NCBI GenBank assembly: GCA_027021085.1
Contig: JALUVB010000042.1
Location: 1 to 15,905 of the forward strand
Direction: 5' to 3'
From: a bacterium
GTDB lineage: Bacteria; CAIJMQ01; JAADFP01
DNA length: 15,905 nucleotides
Positions 268 through 14,695 of the stretch are shown here, piece by piece. The stretch's first letter is position 1. Each line of letters opens with the position of its first letter. The notes under the pieces were generated by a model that was not told the DNA's origin, did not search any database, and saw only the letters and a list, made by a program, of their open reading frames with translations. Both the position numbers and the translations under genes were made by a program.

Positions 268-3200
268 TTATTCAGATGCCCCACTACGATAATGCTCATA
301 CACCTCATCTGCACTCAAAGCCCGCTTGTAAATCCTCACCTCATCAATAACTCCCTTGAATTGATGGAAACCACCGGAGGGAGTTCCGGCCCCTATAACC
401 ACATTATACGCACTGGATTCAGGAGTCTGCCCCGGCTCGTTGTTTACCTCTACACCGTTCAGGTAGATATGCTCTCTTGTCCCATCCAGCACTCCTACCA
501 CGTGATACCATCTCCCGGTTTCTGTTATTGAATCAGGCGGAGTAATTACGGAGCGCTGTAAGCCAGCAATATCGTAAATAAAGTAGGCTTTTTTATCCTC
601 AATCCGTATGGCATATCCTCCCACTTTCCACTGGTCATTAGCCACCAGAGACTGCCGGGAGATTATATCCTCGGGCTTAAACCAGACTTCCACTGTTAAC
701 GGCCCGGTAATATCCAGGCCACTCCCTTCCTCCACCTTTACATAATCGTCCACACCATCAAAGGCTAATCCCTTCCCTATCCTTCCTTCCACCCAGCTGC
801 TGGATGGATCCATGTTCTTGAGGGTAGCATGATTATGATACCCGGAAGAATCCTGTGCAGTACTGCCTTCCCCTTCTTCAAAACGCCATTTACCCCGGGT
901 ATCTGCTGCAAGATAATGCTCATAGACCTCATCAGCGCTCAGGGCCCGGTTGTAAATCCTCACCTCATCAATAACTCCCTTGAACTGATAGAAACCACCG
1001 GAGGGAGTTCCGGCCCCTATAACCACATTATACGCACTGGATTCAGGAGTCTGCCCCGGCTCGTTGTTTACCTCTACACCGTTCAGGTAGATATGCTCTC
1101 TTGTCCCATCCAGCACTCCTACCACGTGATACCATCTCCCGGTTTCCGTTATTGAATCAGGTGGTGTGATTACAGACTGTTGCGCACCTGCAATGTTATA
1201 AATAAAGTAGGCTCTTTTATTCCCTATCCTTACCGCATATCCCCCCACTTTCCACTGGTCATTAGCCACCAGAGATTGCCAGCTGTTTATATCCTCGGGC
1301 TTAAACCAGACTTCCACTGTTAACGGCCCGGTAATATCCAGGCCACTCCCTTCCTCCACCTTTATATAATCGTCCACACCATCAAAGGCTAATCCCTTCC
1401 CTATCCTTCCTTCTACCCAGCTGCTGGATGGATCCATGTTCTTGAGGGTACCATGGTTGCTGTTGGGTGAATTGTCCCTGGCTACAAGCCCTTCCCCTTC
1501 TTCAAAATGCCACCTCCCCACAGGCAGAGCTGTCTTTTGTTTAATCAGTATCTGCCCGCTTAAAGGCTCCAGAGTGATTGAGCTCCCTACATCGTTCCCG
1601 TAAAGGTCATCATATTTCTGGTCAAGTATTACTTCTTCATTGGAAACCCTGTCATAATTTATGAAAATTGAGGAGTAGTCAGCTAAGTTATTAGCATAAG
1701 TTTCCACCTCATAAAGAGTAATATTGTCCAGCCAGAAGGTTGTATCCAGTGAGTTGAACTTAAACTCTAACCGGGCATCCGGCTCATTATCAGAAGCCTT
1801 CAGGATGAGAGCATATTCCTGCCTCTCCGGTTTCATGTCTACCGTCTCGGTTTCACTTAAGTAAGTGTAAGGAGATACATTGCTCCGCAGGGATACTTTC
1901 AGGGTATCTTCCTTGTAAGAATAAACACTGAAAGATATGCGGTAGTATTTATCCTTTTCAACCGGAAAACGGTAATAAACAAGACCTACATCCGACTGGG
2001 AATTATCATTTGAATACACCTTTAAAGCATTCCCATCCAGAGGAGAATTCTCGTCTATTGATATTTCAGTAGTGGAGGGCCAGGGCGTCCAGCCGGCAGT
2101 GGTGGGACTATCGAATTTACCATTCTCAATAAAATCAACCCCTCGATAAACCGTCTCATAGGGCTCAAAAGTGAAAAAGTTATCCAGGCTTTCTGAATAA
2201 ATATCTTCACCGGAATAAGCCTGCCATTCCGAAAGATGAAGCAGTTCTGTAACCCAACCATCTGCCACATATTTTCGTTTAAAGGCATAATTATTCAATG
2301 GCTGGGCATAGTAATTATATTCATAGTCCGCATACTCATCTATATTACCCAGCGAACTGGCATGTTCACTTACAGCAGCATCAGCAAAAGGAGCAGTGTA
2401 AAAGGTATTGTTTTCCACAATATTGCCGGAAATATCACCGGATGAAATCCGGAGAGCAGCTTTTCTGGCAGAATACACTAAATTTCCTCTTACAGTATTA
2501 TTGGAGGCATCATGCAGAAAAATACCCCAGGAGGCATTCCGTACAGTATTATCAGTAACAGTTACATCGCGGGAACGGTCATCCAGGTAAATACCCACAG
2601 CCTCTGAGGCTATAGTATCATCTTCCGGCCGGCCGTCCGCATTACCTATAACGTCTTCCACAATATTGTTACTAATGGTATCCCTATGGATAAATTGCCC
2701 ATAAATACCACCCCCGTCATCCAGGGTCAAACAGGTGCGTTTTACAATGTTACCCGTTATTAAATTATTCGAATCCGGACTATCCTCATATCCGCCTATG
2801 CGGATACCTATATAACCTATATCATATACTAAATTATCCTGAATAATTCCTTCCGAACCATTCCAGTACCAGATACCTTCGTTAGCGCAGTTAAACACTT
2901 CATTCCCGATGATTTTGGACAGGTAAGGACTCCTCAGAACAATGGCCCCGTCCTGTCCGTATCCTTGATATATATTCCATACCTTATTATTTTCCACGCT
3001 AATCTCACTACCGTTGCATAATCTTATCCCCTGCAACCCAATATTAGAAATATCGTTATTCACAATCTCTATATTGCTCGGCTTAGCCACATCTGAGAAA
3101 ACTATCCCGTACTGGGAAAAATTACGAATATCCAGATCTTCTATCCGCACATATTCAATACTTCTCTCACTGCTAAAACAGCTTGCTATGGTAGATACTT

Positions 3201-4962
3201 CCACTTTCTCTGTGTTAAGGTCTGTCCCAGCAGGCGGCCAGAAGTATAATTTGTCTGTACTTTCATCATAGTACCACTCTCCCGGCGAGTCCAGTTCCTC
3301 AAACTTGTTCTCCAGGTAATATCCCCAGCCTTCCCGGTTGCTAGAGGCAGTCTCACTATCTAATGTAATCAGACCATCATTTTTTATATAATCAATAACT
3401 TTCTTTTTCTCAATTCTCCAGGCCCAGGTGCGCATATATATATCAGCTCCATTCCAGTAATCATCCGGCTGGGTTAAATCATAGTCAACCACCTGGTTTG
3501 CCGGACTGTCCGCGTCTATGGTTAAATACCCCCTATTGGGATAACGCGCCAGGGTCTGCCTTTCCCCATTCAAAAACAACTGCGTAATTTTCTCTCCTAC
3601 TCCCGAAGCTACATAGATATTACTATCATATGCTGTCCATCCGGTTATTACCCTCGCACCGTTGATGATGGGTTTCGCTCCCTCCCCATACGCTCCAAAG
3701 GTAACCAACCTATCAGGAGCACCGAAAAAGTTTGTAATGCTACCATGCCACTCCCCCCCTCTCTTGAACAAAACCGTGGCACCCGGGCCAATATCATATT
3801 CGTTCAGCTTATCCAGGGTCCGCCAGGCAGTAGCCTCTGTAAGGCCGTCATTAGCATCATCTCCTCCCTCCGAATCAAGATAGACGGTCCCCAGTATTGT
3901 AGGCTTGCTCAAATTAAACATTGATACTTTATCCACACAAAGTTTCCCGCTATCGGTAGTAAACGTTATGAGAAATCTGGCATCTTCATCTGAGCCATTG
4001 CTTATTGCAGTAAATTCGTAGGGAGCCCACTTGGAAGTTATATTAAAACTCCGGGAGAAGTAGGTTGTATAGGGACTTGTATTTTTTCTTACCTTGACCA
4101 CAACTTCATTGCTGAGATTACCTTTCATCCATAAACGGATCTTATACTCGTCCCCCGCATTGACAGGAATACCGGTTTGGTAGAACTCTACGGTCCCACT
4201 CTCTGAGCTTGTGCGTTCTATTTCCTGGGCATTAACACCTTCATAGGGTGTACTACAATTTGTATAAATGTCTGCTCCCCAGGATAGCCATGAATAAGCT
4301 ATCCCGTTCCAGGATCTAAATCCCTGCTCAAAATCTCCGTTGATAAGTAAATTTAAACTCGTGGGAATGACCGAAACCTCCAGGTATGGATGCTTAGCAG
4401 TATCAGGATTTTCCTTGCTGTAGAAAGATACCAGGCGGTTGGCATCTGAGGGCTCATCGATTGTAGCCTGTTTCAGGCCCAGGCTGAGAACATCATCCTC
4501 CGCATTATTATTGCTCTCTACCAGCGACGTAACATCCCAGCTATACCAGCCGGCCTGGCTGATAAGCTTCTTTTCGCTGTACGAAGCATCCATCGGCGGC
4601 TCATTGATACCTGTTAACGTTTCTTCATCCCAGTTATCATCGCTAACCCCATATACTCCCAGATCTACCGGAGTGCCATCACTCAGACTACCAGAGAGCA
4701 TATGCAATGTTGCCGAGCTAATAATCCATCCATCCGGGATACTACTTAGAGAAAACTTGAGATACCCAAACATCTGCGTCTGCTTCCACTTTTCCCACCC
4801 CACTTTAAACCAGGTAGCCGTGCCTCCCGTCAAATCATATCCATCGTAAATTCCGGCATCGTCCGAAGGTTCAATGGTATAGATGTCTGCCTGAACTAAC
4901 CCACCAGTACTTACCAGCAAAATCACAGCAAAAAACAACCCCATCATAATACCTTTTTTCAT
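268..4962 (-). CDS. Giant secreted beta-helix protein with CBM96, CBM4/9-like and tandem LamG domains
   Basis: 1564 residues from ATG 4962; an upstream in-frame start at 5055 is rejected because ATG 4962 has AAAGGAGGG at good spacing and opens a clean signal peptide (residues 1-25, cut near VQA/DIYT). Domains in order: 26-200 DNRLRE/CBM96-like beta domain; 204-350 CBM4/9-like jelly roll (NLLINGDFEQG ... LCVDKVSMF); 358-590 beta-helix entry region (VYLDSEGGDDANDGLTEATAW, later LNGERQTLARYPN); 600-870 about nine parallel beta-helix coils with asparagine-ladder NN/GN turns; 940-1085 a second CBM4/9-like module; 1090-1145 small beta domain; 1149-1356 and 1357-1564 two near-identical LamG/concanavalin-like modules. 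The beta-helix plus binding modules fits an extracellular polysaccharide lyase or hydrolase (GH141- or PL-like), but the catalytic family and residues cannot be assigned by eye. No C-terminal anchor is seen. The gene lies between the prepilin and GH67N-like genes in the LacI-controlled operon. Confidence 0.85.
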   Translation of the reverse strand: MKKGIMMGLFFAVILLVSTGGLVQADIYTIEPSDDAGIYDGYDLTGGTATWFKVGWEKWKQTQMFGYLKFSLSSIPDGWIISSATLHMLSGSLSDGTPVDLGVYGVSDDNWDEETLTGINEPPMDASYSEKKLISQAGWYSWDVTSLVESNNNAEDDVLSLGLKQATIDEPSDANRLVSFYSKENPDTAKHPYLEVSVIPTSLNLLINGDFEQGFRSWNGIAYSWLSWGADIYTNCSTPYEGVNAQEIERTSSESGTVEFYQTGIPVNAGDEYKIRLWMKGNLSNEVVVKVRKNTSPYTTYFSRSFNITSKWAPYEFTAISNGSDEDARFLITFTTDSGKLCVDKVSMFNLSKPTILGTVYLDSEGGDDANDGLTEATAWRTLDKLNEYDIGPGATVLFKRGGEWHGSITNFFGAPDRLVTFGAYGEGAKPIINGARVITGWTAYDSNIYVASGVGEKITQLFLNGERQTLARYPNRGYLTIDADSPANQVVDYDLTQPDDYWNGADIYMRTWAWRIEKKKVIDYIKNDGLITLDSETASSNREGWGYYLENKFEELDSPGEWYYDESTDKLYFWPPAGTDLNTEKVEVSTIASCFSSERSIEYVRIEDLDIRNFSQYGIVFSDVAKPSNIEIVNNDISNIGLQGIRLCNGSEISVENNKVWNIYQGYGQDGAIVLRSPYLSKIIGNEVFNCANEGIWYWNGSEGIIQDNLVYDIGYIGIRIGGYEDSPDSNNLITGNIVKRTCLTLDDGGGIYGQFIHRDTISNNIVEDVIGNADGRPEDDTIASEAVGIYLDDRSRDVTVTDNTVRNASWGIFLHDASNNTVRGNLVYSARKAALRISSGDISGNIVENNTFYTAPFADAAVSEHASSLGNIDEYADYEYNYYAQPLNNYAFKRKYVADGWVTELLHLSEWQAYSGEDIYSESLDNFFTFEPYETVYRGVDFIENGKFDSPTTAGWTPWPSTTEISIDENSPLDGNALKVYSNDNSQSDVGLVYYRFPVEKDKYYRISFSVYSYKEDTLKVSLRSNVSPYTYLSETETVDMKPERQEYALILKASDNEPDARLEFKFNSLDTTFWLDNITLYEVETYANNLADYSSIFINYDRVSNEEVILDQKYDDLYGNDVGSSITLEPLSGQILIKQKTALPVGRWHFEEGEGLVARDNSPNSNHGTLKNMDPSSSWVEGRIGKGLAFDGVDDYIKVEEGSGLDITGPLTVEVWFKPEDINSWQSLVANDQWKVGGYAVRIGNKRAYFIYNIAGAQQSVITPPDSITETGRWYHVVGVLDGTREHIYLNGVEVNNEPGQTPESSAYNVVIGAGTPSGGFYQFKGVIDEVRIYNRALSADEVYEHYLAADTRGKWRFEEGEGSTAQDSSGYHNHATLKNMDPSSSWVEGRIGKGLAFDGVDDYVKVEEGSGLDITGPLTVEVWFKPEDIISRQSLVANDQWKVGGYAIRIEDKKAYFIYDIAGLQRSVITPPDSITETGRWYHVVGVLDGTREHIYLNGVEVNNEPGQTPESSAYNVVIGAGTPSGGFHQFKGVIDEVRIYKRALSADEVYEHYRSGASE
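291..888 (-). repeat. LamG tandem repeat, C-terminal copy
   Basis: This is the downstream copy of an in-frame direct repeat with an exact period of 624 bp (208 codons); the other copy is 915-1512. Bases 367-522 are identical to 991-1146 (156 bp), and 663-740, 742-789 and 791-826 are also identical to the other copy. The patch 523-662 is clearly more divergent. Confidence 0.95.
915..1512 (-). repeat. LamG tandem repeat, N-terminal copy
   Basis: This copy encodes residues from about 1149 of the giant protein (GRWHFEEGEG ...), with the motifs FDGVDDYIKV, VEVWFKP, GRWYHVVGVLDG and GVIDEVRIYNRAL typical of LamG/Laminin_G_3 modules. It is repeated 624 bp away. Confidence 0.95.
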
Positions 4963-4979
4963 CAAGATATCCCTCCTTT
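4958..4979 (-). repeat. Translation-start repeat, copy 2
   Basis: Identical over 22 bp to 238-259 and located at the start codon of the giant beta-helix gene. It fixes the start at ATG 4962. Confidence 0.8.
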
Positions 4980-5009
4980 TTCCTCTCCAAGATTTTTGCC
5001 CAATTATGA

Positions 5010-5042
5010 ATCTTCCCCGCAGTTTGTTGCTGCGGGGAAGAT
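5010..5042 (-). terminator. Strong 13-bp hairpin between prepilin and giant gene
   Basis: Bases 5010-5022 pair perfectly with 5030-5042 (core CTTCCCCGCAG / CTGCGGGGAAG) around a 7-base loop. It sits 45 bp after the prepilin stop and 48 bp before the giant gene's ATG. On the minus strand the stem is followed by TTCATAATTGGG, not a run of T. It is therefore a poor intrinsic terminator and may instead be an mRNA stabiliser, a processing site or a partial attenuator. The hairpin is certain; its role is inferred. Confidence 0.55.
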
Positions 5043-5086
5043 ATTTACTCCTCAATTTCCCTCTCTCTGGCTATAATCTACATTCT

Positions 5087-5839
5087 CTACCTGATTCTCC
5101 ACGGGCCCGAATCCCAGTGCGACTGTCCCACATAAGGATCCCAGATAGTGGCCTTATCCATAGGCTTTACATGACCATCACAGAAAAGAATGTTCACCAT
5201 CCCATTATGGCGGAAGTCTATGTTCATAAGCACAGGGTTAGGATCATTTAGACCATAAATCCCGTAGTCGGGATAATTGGGCATAAAATGGGTATCTGCT
5301 ATCAAAACCTGCTCAGAAGGGGCAACTATCTGGGCTTCCCTGCGATATCCGGAATAACCACTTCCTGAATCGAGCCCTCCTACAGCACGCTGGTACATCC
5401 CGTAAGCAGAATACACGGCATAAAACCTCTTTCCATCGTTGAGTGTAGTATTTTTATTTAAAGCCGGGTCCCAGAAAACACCCCCTACCCTGACAGTGTC
5501 AAACCGGCCAGCCCCATAATTGGGCGCTAAATCGCCCACGTAGGACTTCAACATGGTTACCCAGGTATAGTCATGCACAAGGTCATGCTGAGGATTATCC
5601 CAGTAACCCGAGGTTTTTAGCGGGAGATACCCATGGTAGTCGGTAATGTACATCCGCCAGCCCAGCCCTATTTGCTTCAGGTTGTTCATACAGACCGCCT
5701 GCCTGGCTTGTGCCCTGGCTCTCTGCAAGGCAGGCAGCAGCATGGCAGCCAGTATCGCTATTATTGCGATAACCACCAGGAGCTCTATCAGCGTGAAAGC
5801 TCCTTTTGCTCCCCACAACTTACGAATCTTACCCATCAT
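5087..5839 (-). CDS. DUF1559-type prepilin with H-X9-DG C-terminal motif
   Basis: 250 residues. The N-terminus is a type IV prepilin signal: basic leader ([11 protein letters not shown]), then [24 protein letters not shown] at 15-38 with Glu at +5 of the mature protein. The residue before the predicted cut is Ala rather than the usual Gly. The rest is a pseudopilin globular domain (NNLKQIGLG ... at 52-60) ending in the H-X9-DG motif: His211, nine residues, Asp221-Gly222 ([16 protein letters not shown]). This family is abundant in Planctomycetes, Lentisphaerae and related phyla; individual functions are mostly unknown, but they are thought to be processed by a prepilin peptidase and shown at the envelope. 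Start ATG 5839 has GGAGGTG six bases upstream and overlaps (ATGA) the end of a 25-codon ORF. It lies 132 bp after GH130 and before the secreted beta-helix gene, so it may help display or export that enzyme (inference). Confidence 0.93.
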
Positions 5840-5971: not shown

Positions 5972-6958
5972 TCATCTAACATTATTTACGCAGAGACTTA
6001 TCAAATCATCCACCCTCGCCGTGGCTAAACAGACGCATTGGTCTGAAGCTCCATAGTAAATTCTTATTGTTTCCCCATAATCATCAAGAACAGCTCCTCC
6101 CGCAAACACCACGTTACCCACATCACCACTGCGCTCGTAGGGTTCTTCCGGAGATAAAATGTAGGGCATCGCCCGGCCAATAATTCTTGCAGGGTCGTTT
6201 AAATCAAGCAAAACGCACCCCAGCCTGTAAATATCCCCTGCTACTGTCTTGCGTACCCCATGATAAATCTCCAGCCACCCTCTTTCCGTTTTTATGGGAG
6301 GAGCTCCAGGCCCGATTTTGTTGCAATCCCAGTGCACGGGACGAGGCCCCATGACAAATTGATGCTTCCCCCAGTAAACAAGGTCCGGAGAATAGGAAAT
6401 CCATATACCCGGGGCAGTGTTAATCTCTCCCATGGGCCTATCAAGTCGCACATACTCTCCATTTATCAACTCGGGAAACAGGACAACATTACGATTGTCG
6501 GGTTCTGCTATCAGCGAGATTCTTTCAAAAGAGATAAAATCATAAGTCCTGGCAACAACCGGATGCACACCCAGCTCACTGTAAGCAGCATAAACAAGAT
6601 AATATGCTTCTCCAATTTTGCTCACCCTGGGATCAGAGAGTCCATAAACTTCATAGCGAGCAAAAGGTTCTTCCGTACTCGGAAGTAAAATCGGCTCGGG
6701 ATATATCTCAAAATGGACACCGTCTTTACTCCGGGCCAGCCCCAGGGCAGAAAATCCCACCTTATTTTCTACCCTGAAAACAAGTATTGTTTCTTCTCCA
6801 TACATGACAGCAGCAGGATTAAAAATTGAATTGCAGGAATAGGGAGTATCTTTAGCAGTCAGGATAGGATTCTCCGGGCATCTCTGCACAATATTCCCGC
6901 TGTCTTCCATCGGATAACGGATATCACTATTAAAATTTCCCGTTATAATCTGCTCCAT
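5972..6958 (-). CDS. GH130 family mannoside phosphorylase or mannosidase
   Basis: 328 residues, the usual length for the family, no signal peptide, so cytoplasmic. It shows the five-bladed propeller signature of GH130: NPILTAKD then NSIFNPAAV (30-51), a FRVEN strand (61-65), YGLSDPRV with the expected catalytic Asp109, NRNVVLFPE (155-162), KIGPGAPPI and LEIYHGV (214-235), YRLGCVLLDL, and NVVF...IRIYYGASD near the end. Family members act on beta-mannosides, commonly by phosphorolysis to give mannose 1-phosphate, for example from Man-beta-1,4-GlcNAc. Arg156, Asn157 and Lys214 sit where phosphate contacts are expected, but RLDRP (171-175) carries Asp where I recall phosphorylases having His (RLHRP). 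Phosphorolysis and hydrolysis cannot be separated here. The ribosome site is weak. It is the first gene after the predicted LacI-controlled promoter at 7005-7047 and so probably leads the operon. Confidence 0.92.
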   Translation of the reverse strand: MEQIITGNFNSDIRYPMEDSGNIVQRCPENPILTAKDTPYSCNSIFNPAAVMYGEETILVFRVENKVGFSALGLARSKDGVHFEIYPEPILLPSTEEPFARYEVYGLSDPRVSKIGEAYYLVYAAYSELGVHPVVARTYDFISFERISLIAEPDNRNVVLFPELINGEYVRLDRPMGEINTAPGIWISYSPDLVYWGKHQFVMGPRPVHWDCNKIGPGAPPIKTERGWLEIYHGVRKTVAGDIYRLGCVLLDLNDPARIIGRAMPYILSPEEPYERSGDVGNVVFAGGAVLDDYGETIRIYYGASDQCVCLATARVDDLISLCVNNVR

Positions 6959-7004
6959 CTTTTCTCTACCACCGCTTTATGCTTCAATTTTATGTAATTA
7001 TTTC

Positions 7005-7047
7005 TGCAATCGTTTACAGTTTAACATGACAAAACTACTTTTGTCAA
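7005..7047 (-). promoter_or_regulatory. GH130 operon promoter with LacI-type operator
   Basis: On the minus strand: -35 TTGACA (7047-7042), 18-bp spacer, -10 TAAACT (7023-7018), then operator TGTAAACGATTGCA (7018-7005), whose first T is the last base of the -10. The operator is a pseudo-palindrome around a central CG (five of seven pairs), as bound by LacI-family dimers, and would cover the start of transcription. A perfect 8-bp inverted repeat (TGACAAAA / TTTTGTCA, 7027-7046) overlaps the -35 and spacer and could be a second protein site. The matching copy at 8124-8166 makes this assignment strong. Confidence 0.75.
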
Positions 7048-7063
7048 GTCTTTTTCTCATTTT

Positions 7064-8101
7064 TTATCTTTTTATTGCCTGGCAGCTCTCCCGGATTATC
7101 AATCTTGTAGGAAGCACTATTTTAACTCCCAGGGATTTTTCCCCGTTTATGCGTGCCATAATCTTTTTGGCGGCCTCTTCTCCCATAGCATAGCGGGGAA
7201 CTTTTACGGTAGTAAGATTGGGGTCAGTGACCAGGCAGACATGGATATCATCAAAACCAATTATACTCATTTGCTCCGGCACCTTTACCCCTGCTTCCTT
7301 GCAGGCTTTTAACGCTCCCACAGCCACAATGTCATTACAGCAAACCACGGCTGTGAGTAGATGGGAGGGGCTTTTTAACCTGTTCAGGAGATGCAATTTA
7401 GCCTCTTCTATATCTGCCATGCAGTCAAGTACTAGCTCTTTGCTAAAAGGTAAACCACTTTTCTCCAGCGCCTTTTTATATCCGGTAAACCTTTCTTCCC
7501 AACCAGGCATTCCCTTTGTTGAACCAAGATAAGCGATTTTTCTGTGGCCAAGGCTTATTAAATAGTCCATAGCCTGCAATATGCCATCTTCATTGTTAGG
7601 AATTACCCAATCAATGTTTGCATCCCCGGGGTCATCATCCACCACCACCATCGGTTTATGAGCAGCACGATAGTAATTCATAACCTCTTCATGCCTTTCC
7701 CCCACCAGAATCACTCCATCACACTCCAGCAAGTCTGCACTCACCGGCTCAGTAAACTTCTCAAACCCGGAGATAATAGTATGATAGCCCTGGTCAGATA
7801 AAGTGGCATTAATCCCATCCAGGATTATATGGAAGAACTTCAGTTCTGCTTCCGGGTAACTCCTGCTAAAAACCCGAATAAGTTTCGTGCGCCATAATAC
7901 CCTGTTCTTGCTTTTGTTTTCCGCCAGGACTCGGGCTGCCAAATGTGGCTGGTACTGGATGCTGTTTATAACCTTTAATACCTTTTCCCGGGTTTTCTTG
8001 CTTACGTTAGCATGCCTGTTTAAAACCCGGGAAACCGTAGCTATGGAAACTCCTGCTTCTCGGGCAACATCCAGTATGTTTACCTGTTTTTTATTTTTCA
8101 T
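7064..8101 (-). CDS. LacI-family transcriptional repressor
   Basis: 345 residues. The N-terminal DNA-binding domain is classical: VNILDVAREAGVSIATVSRVLNR at 7-29 (helix-turn-helix), then a hinge YQPHLAARVLAEN where Leu59 is the residue that intercalates at the central CG of the operator in this family. Residues 64-340 are a periplasmic-binding-protein-like sensor domain (LLECDGVILVG, GHRKIAYLG, CCNDIVAVGAL, MSIIGFDDI, then PTRLIIRESC). No signal peptide. The ligand is not predictable but is probably a sugar derived from the neighbouring enzymes' substrate. It reads into the GH130 operon 105 bp downstream, and predicted operators of the same sequence lie in its own promoter and in the GH130 promoter, implying autoregulation. 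The start ATG has only a weak ribosome site; no better in-frame start exists because TAG lies just upstream. Confidence 0.95.
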   Translation of the reverse strand: MKNKKQVNILDVAREAGVSIATVSRVLNRHANVSKKTREKVLKVINSIQYQPHLAARVLAENKSKNRVLWRTKLIRVFSRSYPEAELKFFHIILDGINATLSDQGYHTIISGFEKFTEPVSADLLECDGVILVGERHEEVMNYYRAAHKPMVVVDDDPGDANIDWVIPNNEDGILQAMDYLISLGHRKIAYLGSTKGMPGWEERFTGYKKALEKSGLPFSKELVLDCMADIEEAKLHLLNRLKSPSHLLTAVVCCNDIVAVGALKACKEAGVKVPEQMSIIGFDDIHVCLVTDPNLTTVKVPRYAMGEEAAKKIMARINGEKSLGVKIVLPTRLIIRESCQAIKR

Positions 8102-8123
8102 TTCTACCCGATGAAATCATCCA

Positions 8124-8166
8124 TGAAATCGCTTACATGGTAGCATAAGAACAACACTCCTGTCAA
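8124..8166 (-). promoter_or_regulatory. Repressor gene promoter with matching LacI-type operator
   Basis: On the minus strand: -35 TTGACA (8166-8161), 18-bp spacer, -10 TACCAT (8142-8137), then operator TGTAAGCGATTTCA (8137-8124). It matches the GH130 operator at 12 of 14 bases and shares its placing exactly: same -35, same spacer length, and the last T of the -10 is the first base of the operator. This predicts autorepression of the LacI-family gene. Confidence 0.75.
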
Positions 8167-8306
8167 GATTAACACCCTGTAGGCCGTAGATTATCATGAA
8201 ATTAACGCCATGTGCGACTTTTAAAGGTAACTGTTCGAGATGCCCTACCCGCTTCCTGGGGTAACATCGGGGCAGGCAGACAACTTACTGTTCCCTATCC
8301 TCCCCC

Positions 8307-8330
8307 CTCACTACTAACTACTCACTACTG
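8307..8330. repeat. Heptamer array A (CTCACTA type)
   Basis: Units CTCACTA, CTAACTA, CTCACTA and a partial CTG. Followed by the spacer TTCCTCCTTTCCCC (8331-8344). Confidence 0.85.
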
Positions 8331-8344
8331 TTCCTCCTTTCCCC

Positions 8345-8376
8345 GTCTACAGTCTATAGTCTAAGGTCTATAGTCT
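8345..8376. repeat. Heptamer array B (GTCTATA type)
   Basis: Units GTCTACA, GTCTATA, GTCTAAG, GTCTATA and a partial GTCT. Followed by the spacer TTCCTGCTTTCCCC (8377-8390), which matches the previous spacer at 13 of 14 bases. Confidence 0.85.
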
Positions 8377-8389
8377 TTCCTGCTTTCCC

Positions 8390-8434
8390 CTCGCTACCCG
8401 CTACTCACTACTCGCTACTGATTATTCGTCATTC
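8390..8434. repeat. Heptamer array C (CTCGCTA type)
   Basis: Units CTCGCTA, CCCGCTA, CTCACTA, CTCGCTA, then the more degenerate CTGATTA, TTCGTCA and a partial TTC. Its first base is the last base of the preceding spacer. Confidence 0.85.
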
Positions 8435-13737: not shown

Positions 13738-14196
13738 TTACTGTAAATCCTCGATCTTATTTTCCAGATTTTCTACCTTGTGAGATAGTTTCTTTATTGC
13801 CTCTTCCTGTTCTTTGAGTTGTTTATTCAACCTGCCAATCATCTGTACCAATCTCTTCTCTCTTTTCTCCTTCTCACGTGCAAGCGATTGCAATCTTTCT
13901 CTTAACTCTCCCCTGGGCAAAGCTCCTCCGCGTTTCTCCAGACCTCTCTTGGGAACTCTCCCCTGTGGTGTCTGCTGCCATTGGCGACCCTTCTGCAACT
14001 GCATACCAGGCTTCATCATGTTCTGCCCTTTCCAGGGACGCTGCACCAGTGACCTGCGCATCATGAGAAACCTGCTGGGCTTTATCACTTTACTTCTTAT
14101 CAGGTGATTGTTAACTATCGAAATAGTTGTCCCGGCAGCTCCCAGAAGAAACGCAAGAGTTACAAAGATACTGAGGATTCTGGTTTCCTTATTCAT
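13738..14196 (-). CDS. Membrane-anchored basic coiled-coil protein, function unknown
   Basis: 152 residues from ATG 14196, chosen because AGGAGG lies exactly 8 bases upstream; the longer GTG start at 14205 overlaps that Shine-Dalgarno. A single N-terminal hydrophobic segment (about 5-27, ILSIFVTLAFLLGAAGTTISIV) is followed by a region rich in Arg, Lys, Gln, Met and Pro (about 35-95) and then a long charged helix, about 95-152, with heptad spacing (LREKRLVQMI-like, LNKQLKEQEEAIKKL, VENLENKIEDL) that should form a coiled coil. I do not recognise a family. The gene overlaps the upstream exported-protein gene by 8 bp (ATGAATAA), implying translational coupling. The terminator at 13655-13728 follows. 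Confidence 0.8.
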   Translation of the reverse strand: MNKETRILSIFVTLAFLLGAAGTTISIVNNHLIRSKVIKPSRFLMMRRSLVQRPWKGQNMMKPGMQLQKGRQWQQTPQGRVPKRGLEKRGGALPRGELRERLQSLAREKEKREKRLVQMIGRLNKQLKEQEEAIKKLSHKVENLENKIEDLQ

Positions 14197-14695
14197 AGCA
14201 CTCACCTCCTTTTCTCATTCTTCTTTTTCCTTCTCCCCTTCTCCCGGGAGAAAGCAGGTAAAGACGGTAACTTTCTCCTTCCAGCACTAATTTTCCCGTG
14301 ATAACTTTTTCCTGTCTTTTCTCTCCCACCTCTTTCACCTGGAGGGAAATATCTCCTACTTCTTCTCTGCCTTCTTTCTGGAGCAGTACCTTTCCAGAGA
14401 ACTCCCCGTCACCTGTTTTTTCTACATCGAGGAAATATTTTTCTCCTTCCAGGAAAAGCATCCCCCGCAACCTGCCTACCCCTTCTCCTTCTACTTCTTT
14501 TTCTGTAACAATTATCTTAACTAATCGGTACTCATCCTGCATTACAGCAAATCCTTTTCCCATCAATACCGGGGCAGGTCTTTCTCTGGCTACATCTCCC
14601 ATGTTTCGGGCATATAGGAGGGTGGGTAAAAGCATCATCATCCCAGCCAGAATACATAGGGGAACTTTGCTCTTTGGGTAAATCAATTGTTTCAT
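14189..14695 (-). CDS. Exported beta-rich basic protein, function unknown
   Basis: 168 residues. ATG 14695 has AAGGAGGTGA at good spacing. Residues 1-29 are a signal peptide (KQLIYPKSK, then LCILAGMMMLLPTLL, cut near LYA/RNM). The mature protein alternates short strands: GKGFAVMQDEYRLVKIIV, GRLRGMLFLEGEKYFLDVEK, FSGKVLLQKEG, then ITGKLVLEGESYRLYLLS, so it looks like an all-beta fold with two related GxLxLEGExYxL segments (about 75-90 and 134-150). It ends in a strongly basic tail (RRGEGKRRMRKGG). No family is recognised. It overlaps the next gene by 8 bp, so the pair probably works together at the membrane, for example a secreted domain with an anchored coiled-coil partner (inference). Confidence 0.8.
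   Translation of the reverse strand: MKQLIYPKSKVPLCILAGMMMLLPTLLYARNMGDVARERPAPVLMGKGFAVMQDEYRLVKIIVTEKEVEGEGVGRLRGMLFLEGEKYFLDVEKTGDGEFSGKVLLQKEGREEVGDISLQVKEVGEKRQEKVITGKLVLEGESYRLYLLSPGRRGEGKRRMRKGGECYE

Follow-up and report, generated by a model that had tools for sequence, protein, structure and literature searches.

The repressor gene, its neighbours and two promoters

The stretch of DNA analysed here (15,905 nucleotides; below, the window) carries on its minus strand a gene for a LacI-family repressor of 345 residues (7064..8101), followed by a gene for a GH130 enzyme (5972..6958), its predicted target. The repressor combines an N-terminal helix-turn-helix (HTH; Pfam LacI, PF00356, 5.8e-19 at residues 9-52) with a periplasmic-binding-protein-like ligand domain (Peripla_BP_3, PF13377, 2.4e-37 at residues 179-340), and it has both a recognition helix of the TVSR type (VSIATVSRVLN, that is VS-IA-TVSRVLN) and a hinge with the expected leucine (AARVLAENK); all of its NCBIfam matches lie below the cut-offs. 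The GH130 protein resembles the known beta-mannoside phosphorylases of this family (TM1225, UHGB_MP and the beta-1,2-mannobiose phosphorylases) in its full-length family match (Glyco_hydro_130, PF04041, E=1e-58), and its best solved relatives are TM1225, a beta-1,4-mannooligosaccharide phosphorylase (1.8e-63), and UHGB_MP. Unlike those enzymes it falls below all NCBIfam equivalog cut-offs, and we therefore leave the cleaved linkage unassigned.

Two further genes lie beyond on the same strand. The first, for a pseudopilin-like protein with DUF1559 and H-X9-DG matches in Pfam and NCBIfam (5087..5839), is separated from the GH130 gene by a 132-bp gap in which a simple scan revealed neither a terminator nor a minus-strand promoter; the second encodes a large secreted-looking protein of 1595 residues with CBM96/DNRLRE, CBM_4_9, beta-helix and LamG matches in Pfam (268..5055). 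Co-transcription of both with the GH130 gene is plausible from this arrangement. A GH38 alpha-mannosidase gene runs divergently from 8638, and its upstream region contains no operator-like site within two mismatches.

Each of the first two genes is preceded by a promoter whose -35 element was found by direct reading and by pattern matching and whose -10 element by direct reading. That of the repressor gene (minus strand, 8166-8124) reads TTGACA-GGAGTGTTGTTCTTATGC(18)-TACCAT-GTAAGCGATTTCA, with the -35 at 8161..8166, the -10 at 8137..8142 and an operator, O1 (TGTAAGCGATTTCA), at 8124..8137, its centre near the predicted transcription start. That of the GH130 gene (minus strand, 7047-7005) reads TTGACA-AAAGTAGTTTTGTCATGT(18)-TAAACT-GTAAACGATTGCA, with the corresponding elements at 7042..7047 and 7018..7023 and operator O2 (TGTAAACGATTGCA) at 7005..7018. 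The 14-bp site common to both, TGTAANCGATTNCA, begins with a T that is also the last base of the -10, so the geometry given in the preliminary description (TTGACA, an 18-bp spacer, a -10 and an operator sharing its final base) is exact at both promoters. O1 and O2 agree at 12 of 14 positions, the mismatches being confined to positions 6 and 12, and both are imperfect palindromes (TGTAANCG.NTTNCA) of the even type with a central CG that is characteristic of LacI-family operators. Both -10 elements are also of the extended kind (TGTTAAACT, TGCTACCAT; TGC ahead of TACCAT and TGT ahead of TAAACT), a feature absent from the earlier account, and both promoters score 10/12 in a promoter scan with TG before the -10.

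The likeness of the two promoters extends beyond these motifs: outside the hexamers and the operator, 27 of 58 aligned columns are shared (shuffle P = 0.0003). The two are thus probably descendants of one promoter, and their operators are better regarded as duplicates than as the independent occurrences they had been taken for, all the more since the cassette as a whole has been duplicated elsewhere in the genome. The case for operator function survives this loss of independence because it is based on conservation after divergence.

A duplicated cassette and the conservation of its operators

We scanned the genome assembly (1.93 Mb in 307 contigs, 93.9% complete, 3.87% estimated contamination) by pattern searches and took as chance expectation a first-order Markov model derived from its own DNA. 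The operator consensus TGTAANCGNTTNCA has four exact sites against 0.49 expected, and the full pattern of promoter plus operator (TTGACA-18-TANNNT-operator) occurs three times against about 2e-5 expected. The reversed control of the full pattern gave no match in this genome, and the full pattern itself has none in the 59 other genomes among the 60 genomes of relatives searched. A chance origin of the shared pattern is excluded. Contig C261 carries the remaining one of the three full patterns and two of the exact operators, placed around a copy of the repressor gene that is 85% identical, so that all four exact sites flank two paralogous repressor genes.

The homologous block takes in the repressor gene together with its promoter, and the second promoter with its operator. 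It starts 4 bp ahead of the repressor gene's TTGACA and ends ~30 bp past the second operator (6975..8170 in the window, minus strand; about 1509-2709 on C261). The repressor promoter of the copy is intact (TTGACA-18-TAGGAT-GTAAACGGTTTCA), and the 11 specified bases of its operator (C261:1542-1555) are identical to those of O1. The second promoter, now CTGACC-18-TGAAAT, has decayed, and the operator there is nevertheless perfect (L006:2637-2679), its alignment with O2 (C261:2666-2679) showing one change, at an N position. A search downstream of the copy for remnants of GH130 or of the other window genes produced none that was convincing; the nearest frames, an ORF of 102 aa on the plus strand and one of 160 aa on the minus strand, have no Pfam matches, and a URO-D-type gene follows.

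Comparison of the two repressor genes (window 7064-8101 and L006:1578-2624) reveals a mosaic in which near-identical tracts (codons 61-190 and 276-345) lie between strongly diverged ones. Silent third-base differences affect 13 of 190 same-residue codons in the former and 19 of 46 in codons 1-60, and this clustering (permutation P=0.0007) suggests that the copies have exchanged sequence by gene conversion. With an estimated contamination of 3.87% in the bin, one of the two contigs might belong to a close relative or related strain; the heptamer repeats typical of this genome, which both contigs carry, count against a foreign origin of either. These repeats, built of GTCTATA, ACTACTA and CTCGCTA units, occupy 8304-8426 in the window (for example 8352-8375) and L006:1199-1282. 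They form a dispersed heptanucleotide family: with up to two mismatches, GACTATAGACYWTAGACTATAGAC has 145 matches in this genome against 0 for the control, 55 in a genome of the same genus and six in one of the same class, and is absent from another genome of the same family.

Two such similar cassettes could form one circuit in which each repressor recognises all four sites and the one from C261 serves as a second sensor for the GH130 operon, an arrangement that would extend, and not exclude, local control by the window repressor. Ala-16, the TVSRVLNR stretch and the specified operator bases are identical in both cassettes, and most of the ligand domain is near-identical even at silent sites, in contrast to the diverged HTH segment. 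On the other hand, residue 15 differs (the pair before TVSR is Ile-Ala in the window repressor and Thr-Ala in the copy), residues 191-275 differ strongly (29 replacements), so that the ligands may too, and the two contigs may derive from related strains that were binned together. We regard cross-regulation as a serious possibility whose chances fall slightly short of even.

For local control by the window repressor, the duplicate supplies a footprint. Among the aligned non-coding bases of the two promoter pairs, none of the 22 specified operator bases (11 per operator, two operator pairs) has changed between the cassettes, as against 45 of the 114 others (Fisher P=5e-5), where two of the three N positions were taken from O1 and O2, and position 9, at which the first C261 site differs, was left open following the general LacI-type consensus; over all 14 operator positions the comparison gives P=0.003. 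All three operator differences fall at N positions of TGTAANCGNTTNCA. As the specified bases are kept even where the C261 promoter has decayed, this comparison is our best evidence that the operator itself, beyond the promoter alone, is under selection. It draws on one paralogous pair, window and C261, because no orthologue of the repressor was found outside this genome: the best match in the 59 genomes of relatives has about 35% identity, and a scan of 84,980 named genomes returned four remote relatives at about 31%.

The same comparison bears on whether the window sites might be alike solely through promoter copying, the operator having no function. The shared ancestry is real, as the matching columns outside the motifs and the duplication of the whole cassette attest, yet where neighbouring bases have diverged by ~40% the specified operator bases are unchanged, even beside a decayed promoter, and the motif also agrees with the recognition residues and is found again ahead of LacI genes in relatives; copying without function is accordingly very improbable.

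Recognition residues, relatives and the extent of the regulon

An alanine at recognition position 16 pairs with TGNAANCGNTTNCA, as in GalR and CcpA. In LacI proteins, operator bases NT-5 and NT-4 are set by residues AA-15 and AA-16, with AA-16 having the strongest effect, and Arg-20 accompanies a conserved operator G (Camas et al. 2010, PMC2978694). The Ile-Ala before TVSR in the window repressor fits the class of its operators. In agreement with the pairing of Ala-16, among 20 LacI-type HTHs that we screened, full upstream matches occur only in the Ala-16 class (IA, TA, KA and PA; five genes) and in none of the others; several Ala-16 genes are without a full match.

Relatives show the same association. 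In G002, of the same family, the only TGNAANCGNTTNCA in the genome lies directly before its LacI gene, which is of the Ala-16 class, and in G003, of the same class of bacteria, one of three does so and reads TGCAAACGTTTGCA. Unrelated IA-class LacI genes (loci L038 and L091) have TGNAANCGNTTNCA just upstream, and before one IA-class gene of an unrelated genome the site reads TGTAAGCGTTTACA. The preliminary description had proposed comparing the two promoters in relatives. LacI genes of this class there carry the motif, though without the one-base overlap with the -10: in G002 and G003 some 4 or 10 bp separate the site from the -10, and the overlap is therefore a feature local to this genome. 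The one promoter-plus-operator match in 299 genomes of another phylum was rejected; the operator does precede an IA-class LacI gene, and the -35 and -10 run in the opposite direction, through the gene start, so the geometry is coincidental.

The motif had also been put forward as a means of finding a wider regulon, an expectation that the genome scan disappointed: exact sites occur only at the two lacI cassettes, and other palindromic matches are coding. Beyond the four cassette sites, TGNAANCGNTTNCA matches only within reading frames (window 13879 and C291:6286). The window match belongs to a perfect palindrome of the operator class, TGCAAGCGATTGCA (13879-13892), inside the ORF at 13738-14205, and is probably due to chance. 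Near matches on C291, C233, C246, C215, C163, C51, C62 and C247 were likewise rejected, as they are inside long reading frames and lack promoter geometry. Three of these (C51:3297, C62:3068 and C247:19) are one sequence, in the context TATAAACGATTTCA, located at contig ends, which suggests that a repeated gene interrupts the assembly. No such site lies upstream of any further LacI-type gene in the genome. In the part of the genome covered by the assembly (93.9% complete, 307 contigs), the regulon consists of the two local cassettes.

This small regulon also bears on the idea that the sites serve a global regulator of the CcpA type, as cre-like elements, and that the local repressor does not use them as operators. 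TGTAANCGNTTNCA resembles the cre consensus and has the form of the GalR/CcpA-type operator, and the closest solved relatives of the repressor include CcpA. A global regulon would, however, have many sites, whereas the only four exact ones all lie beside two paralogous repressor genes; the window protein scores 163 bits against a CcpA equivalog cut-off of 442, and it alone was scored with that model in a genome with only six LacI-type HTH matches. We consider a global regulator of this type a very unlikely explanation. The local repressor does share with GalR and CcpA the alanine at position 16 and an operator of the form TG..AA.CG.TT..CA, and differs from them in lying far below both equivalog cut-offs and in having a tiny local regulon instead of a global one.

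A probable local autoregulated circuit

Sites that stand at the repressor's own promoter and at that of the adjacent operon, and that are conserved above their surroundings, are most simply accounted for by a local LacI repressor that would control its own gene and also repress the downstream GH130 operon by promoter occlusion, and we hold this reading with high confidence. In this circuit, a repressor dimer would bind the two 14-bp TGTAANCGNTTNCA sites. If transcription begins about 7 nt past the -10, each operator, whose first base is the final base of the -10, would extend over ~-7 to +7 with its CG centre on the predicted start. Bound repressor would therefore block RNA polymerase from the core promoter, occlusion being the simplest mechanism. 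The releasing ligand would be a sugar, with a mannoside or one of the products of GH130 catalysis as the probable candidates given the nature of the target enzyme, and release would induce GH130, possibly the two genes behind it, and the repressor itself, closing a negative feedback loop.

The earlier claim that the repressor controls itself and the whole glycan operon therefore holds in part. Control of itself and of the downstream GH130 promoter is supported by the paralogue footprint, the recognition residues and the motif before LacI genes of relatives; the divergent GH38 gene, having no site, falls outside, and "whole glycan operon" can cover only GH130 and the same-strand pilin-like and beta-helix genes.

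The circuit is ordinary, of a known textbook type that is common in bacteria, and it is well supported by what the sequence shows: the sites, their geometry, the cassette duplication, the base-level conservation and the recognition residues. Of about 1300 LacI regulators studied, 72% are autoregulated and about 90% local (Ravcheev et al. 2014, PMC4052901), and local control, in which a repressor acts on its own and a downstream unidirectional promoter, is common enough to be used in locating sites (PMC2978694). The present system is like these local sugar-operon repressors (PMC4052901, PMC2978694) in its TVSR-group HTH, its even near-palindrome with a central CG, its sites at its own promoter and that of the downstream adjacent operon, and its carbohydrate target; it is unlike them in the exact start of both operators at the final -10 base, in the duplication of its cassette and in belonging to a hardly sampled lineage.

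The cassette has been duplicated once, the C261 copy keeping its repressor and own operator-promoter intact while the second promoter decayed and, with GH130 absent, left its operator behind. This offers a counterpoint to the circuit: operator and promoter need not act together, judging from a second operator on C261 that outlasts its promoter. A more speculative suggestion, which we think improbable, is that this orphan operator serves a separate function for which it has been retained, titration of the repressor or its looping over about 1.1 kb, and that the two paralogous repressors work as a single dual-sensor circuit.

Repressor, operator and target enzyme are thus assigned, from sequence, in a hardly sampled bacterial lineage, with an internal duplicate supplying the footprint where orthologues were not found. 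The pairing of a decayed promoter with an intact operator in the duplicated cassette constitutes a small natural experiment in the breakdown of a local regulon.
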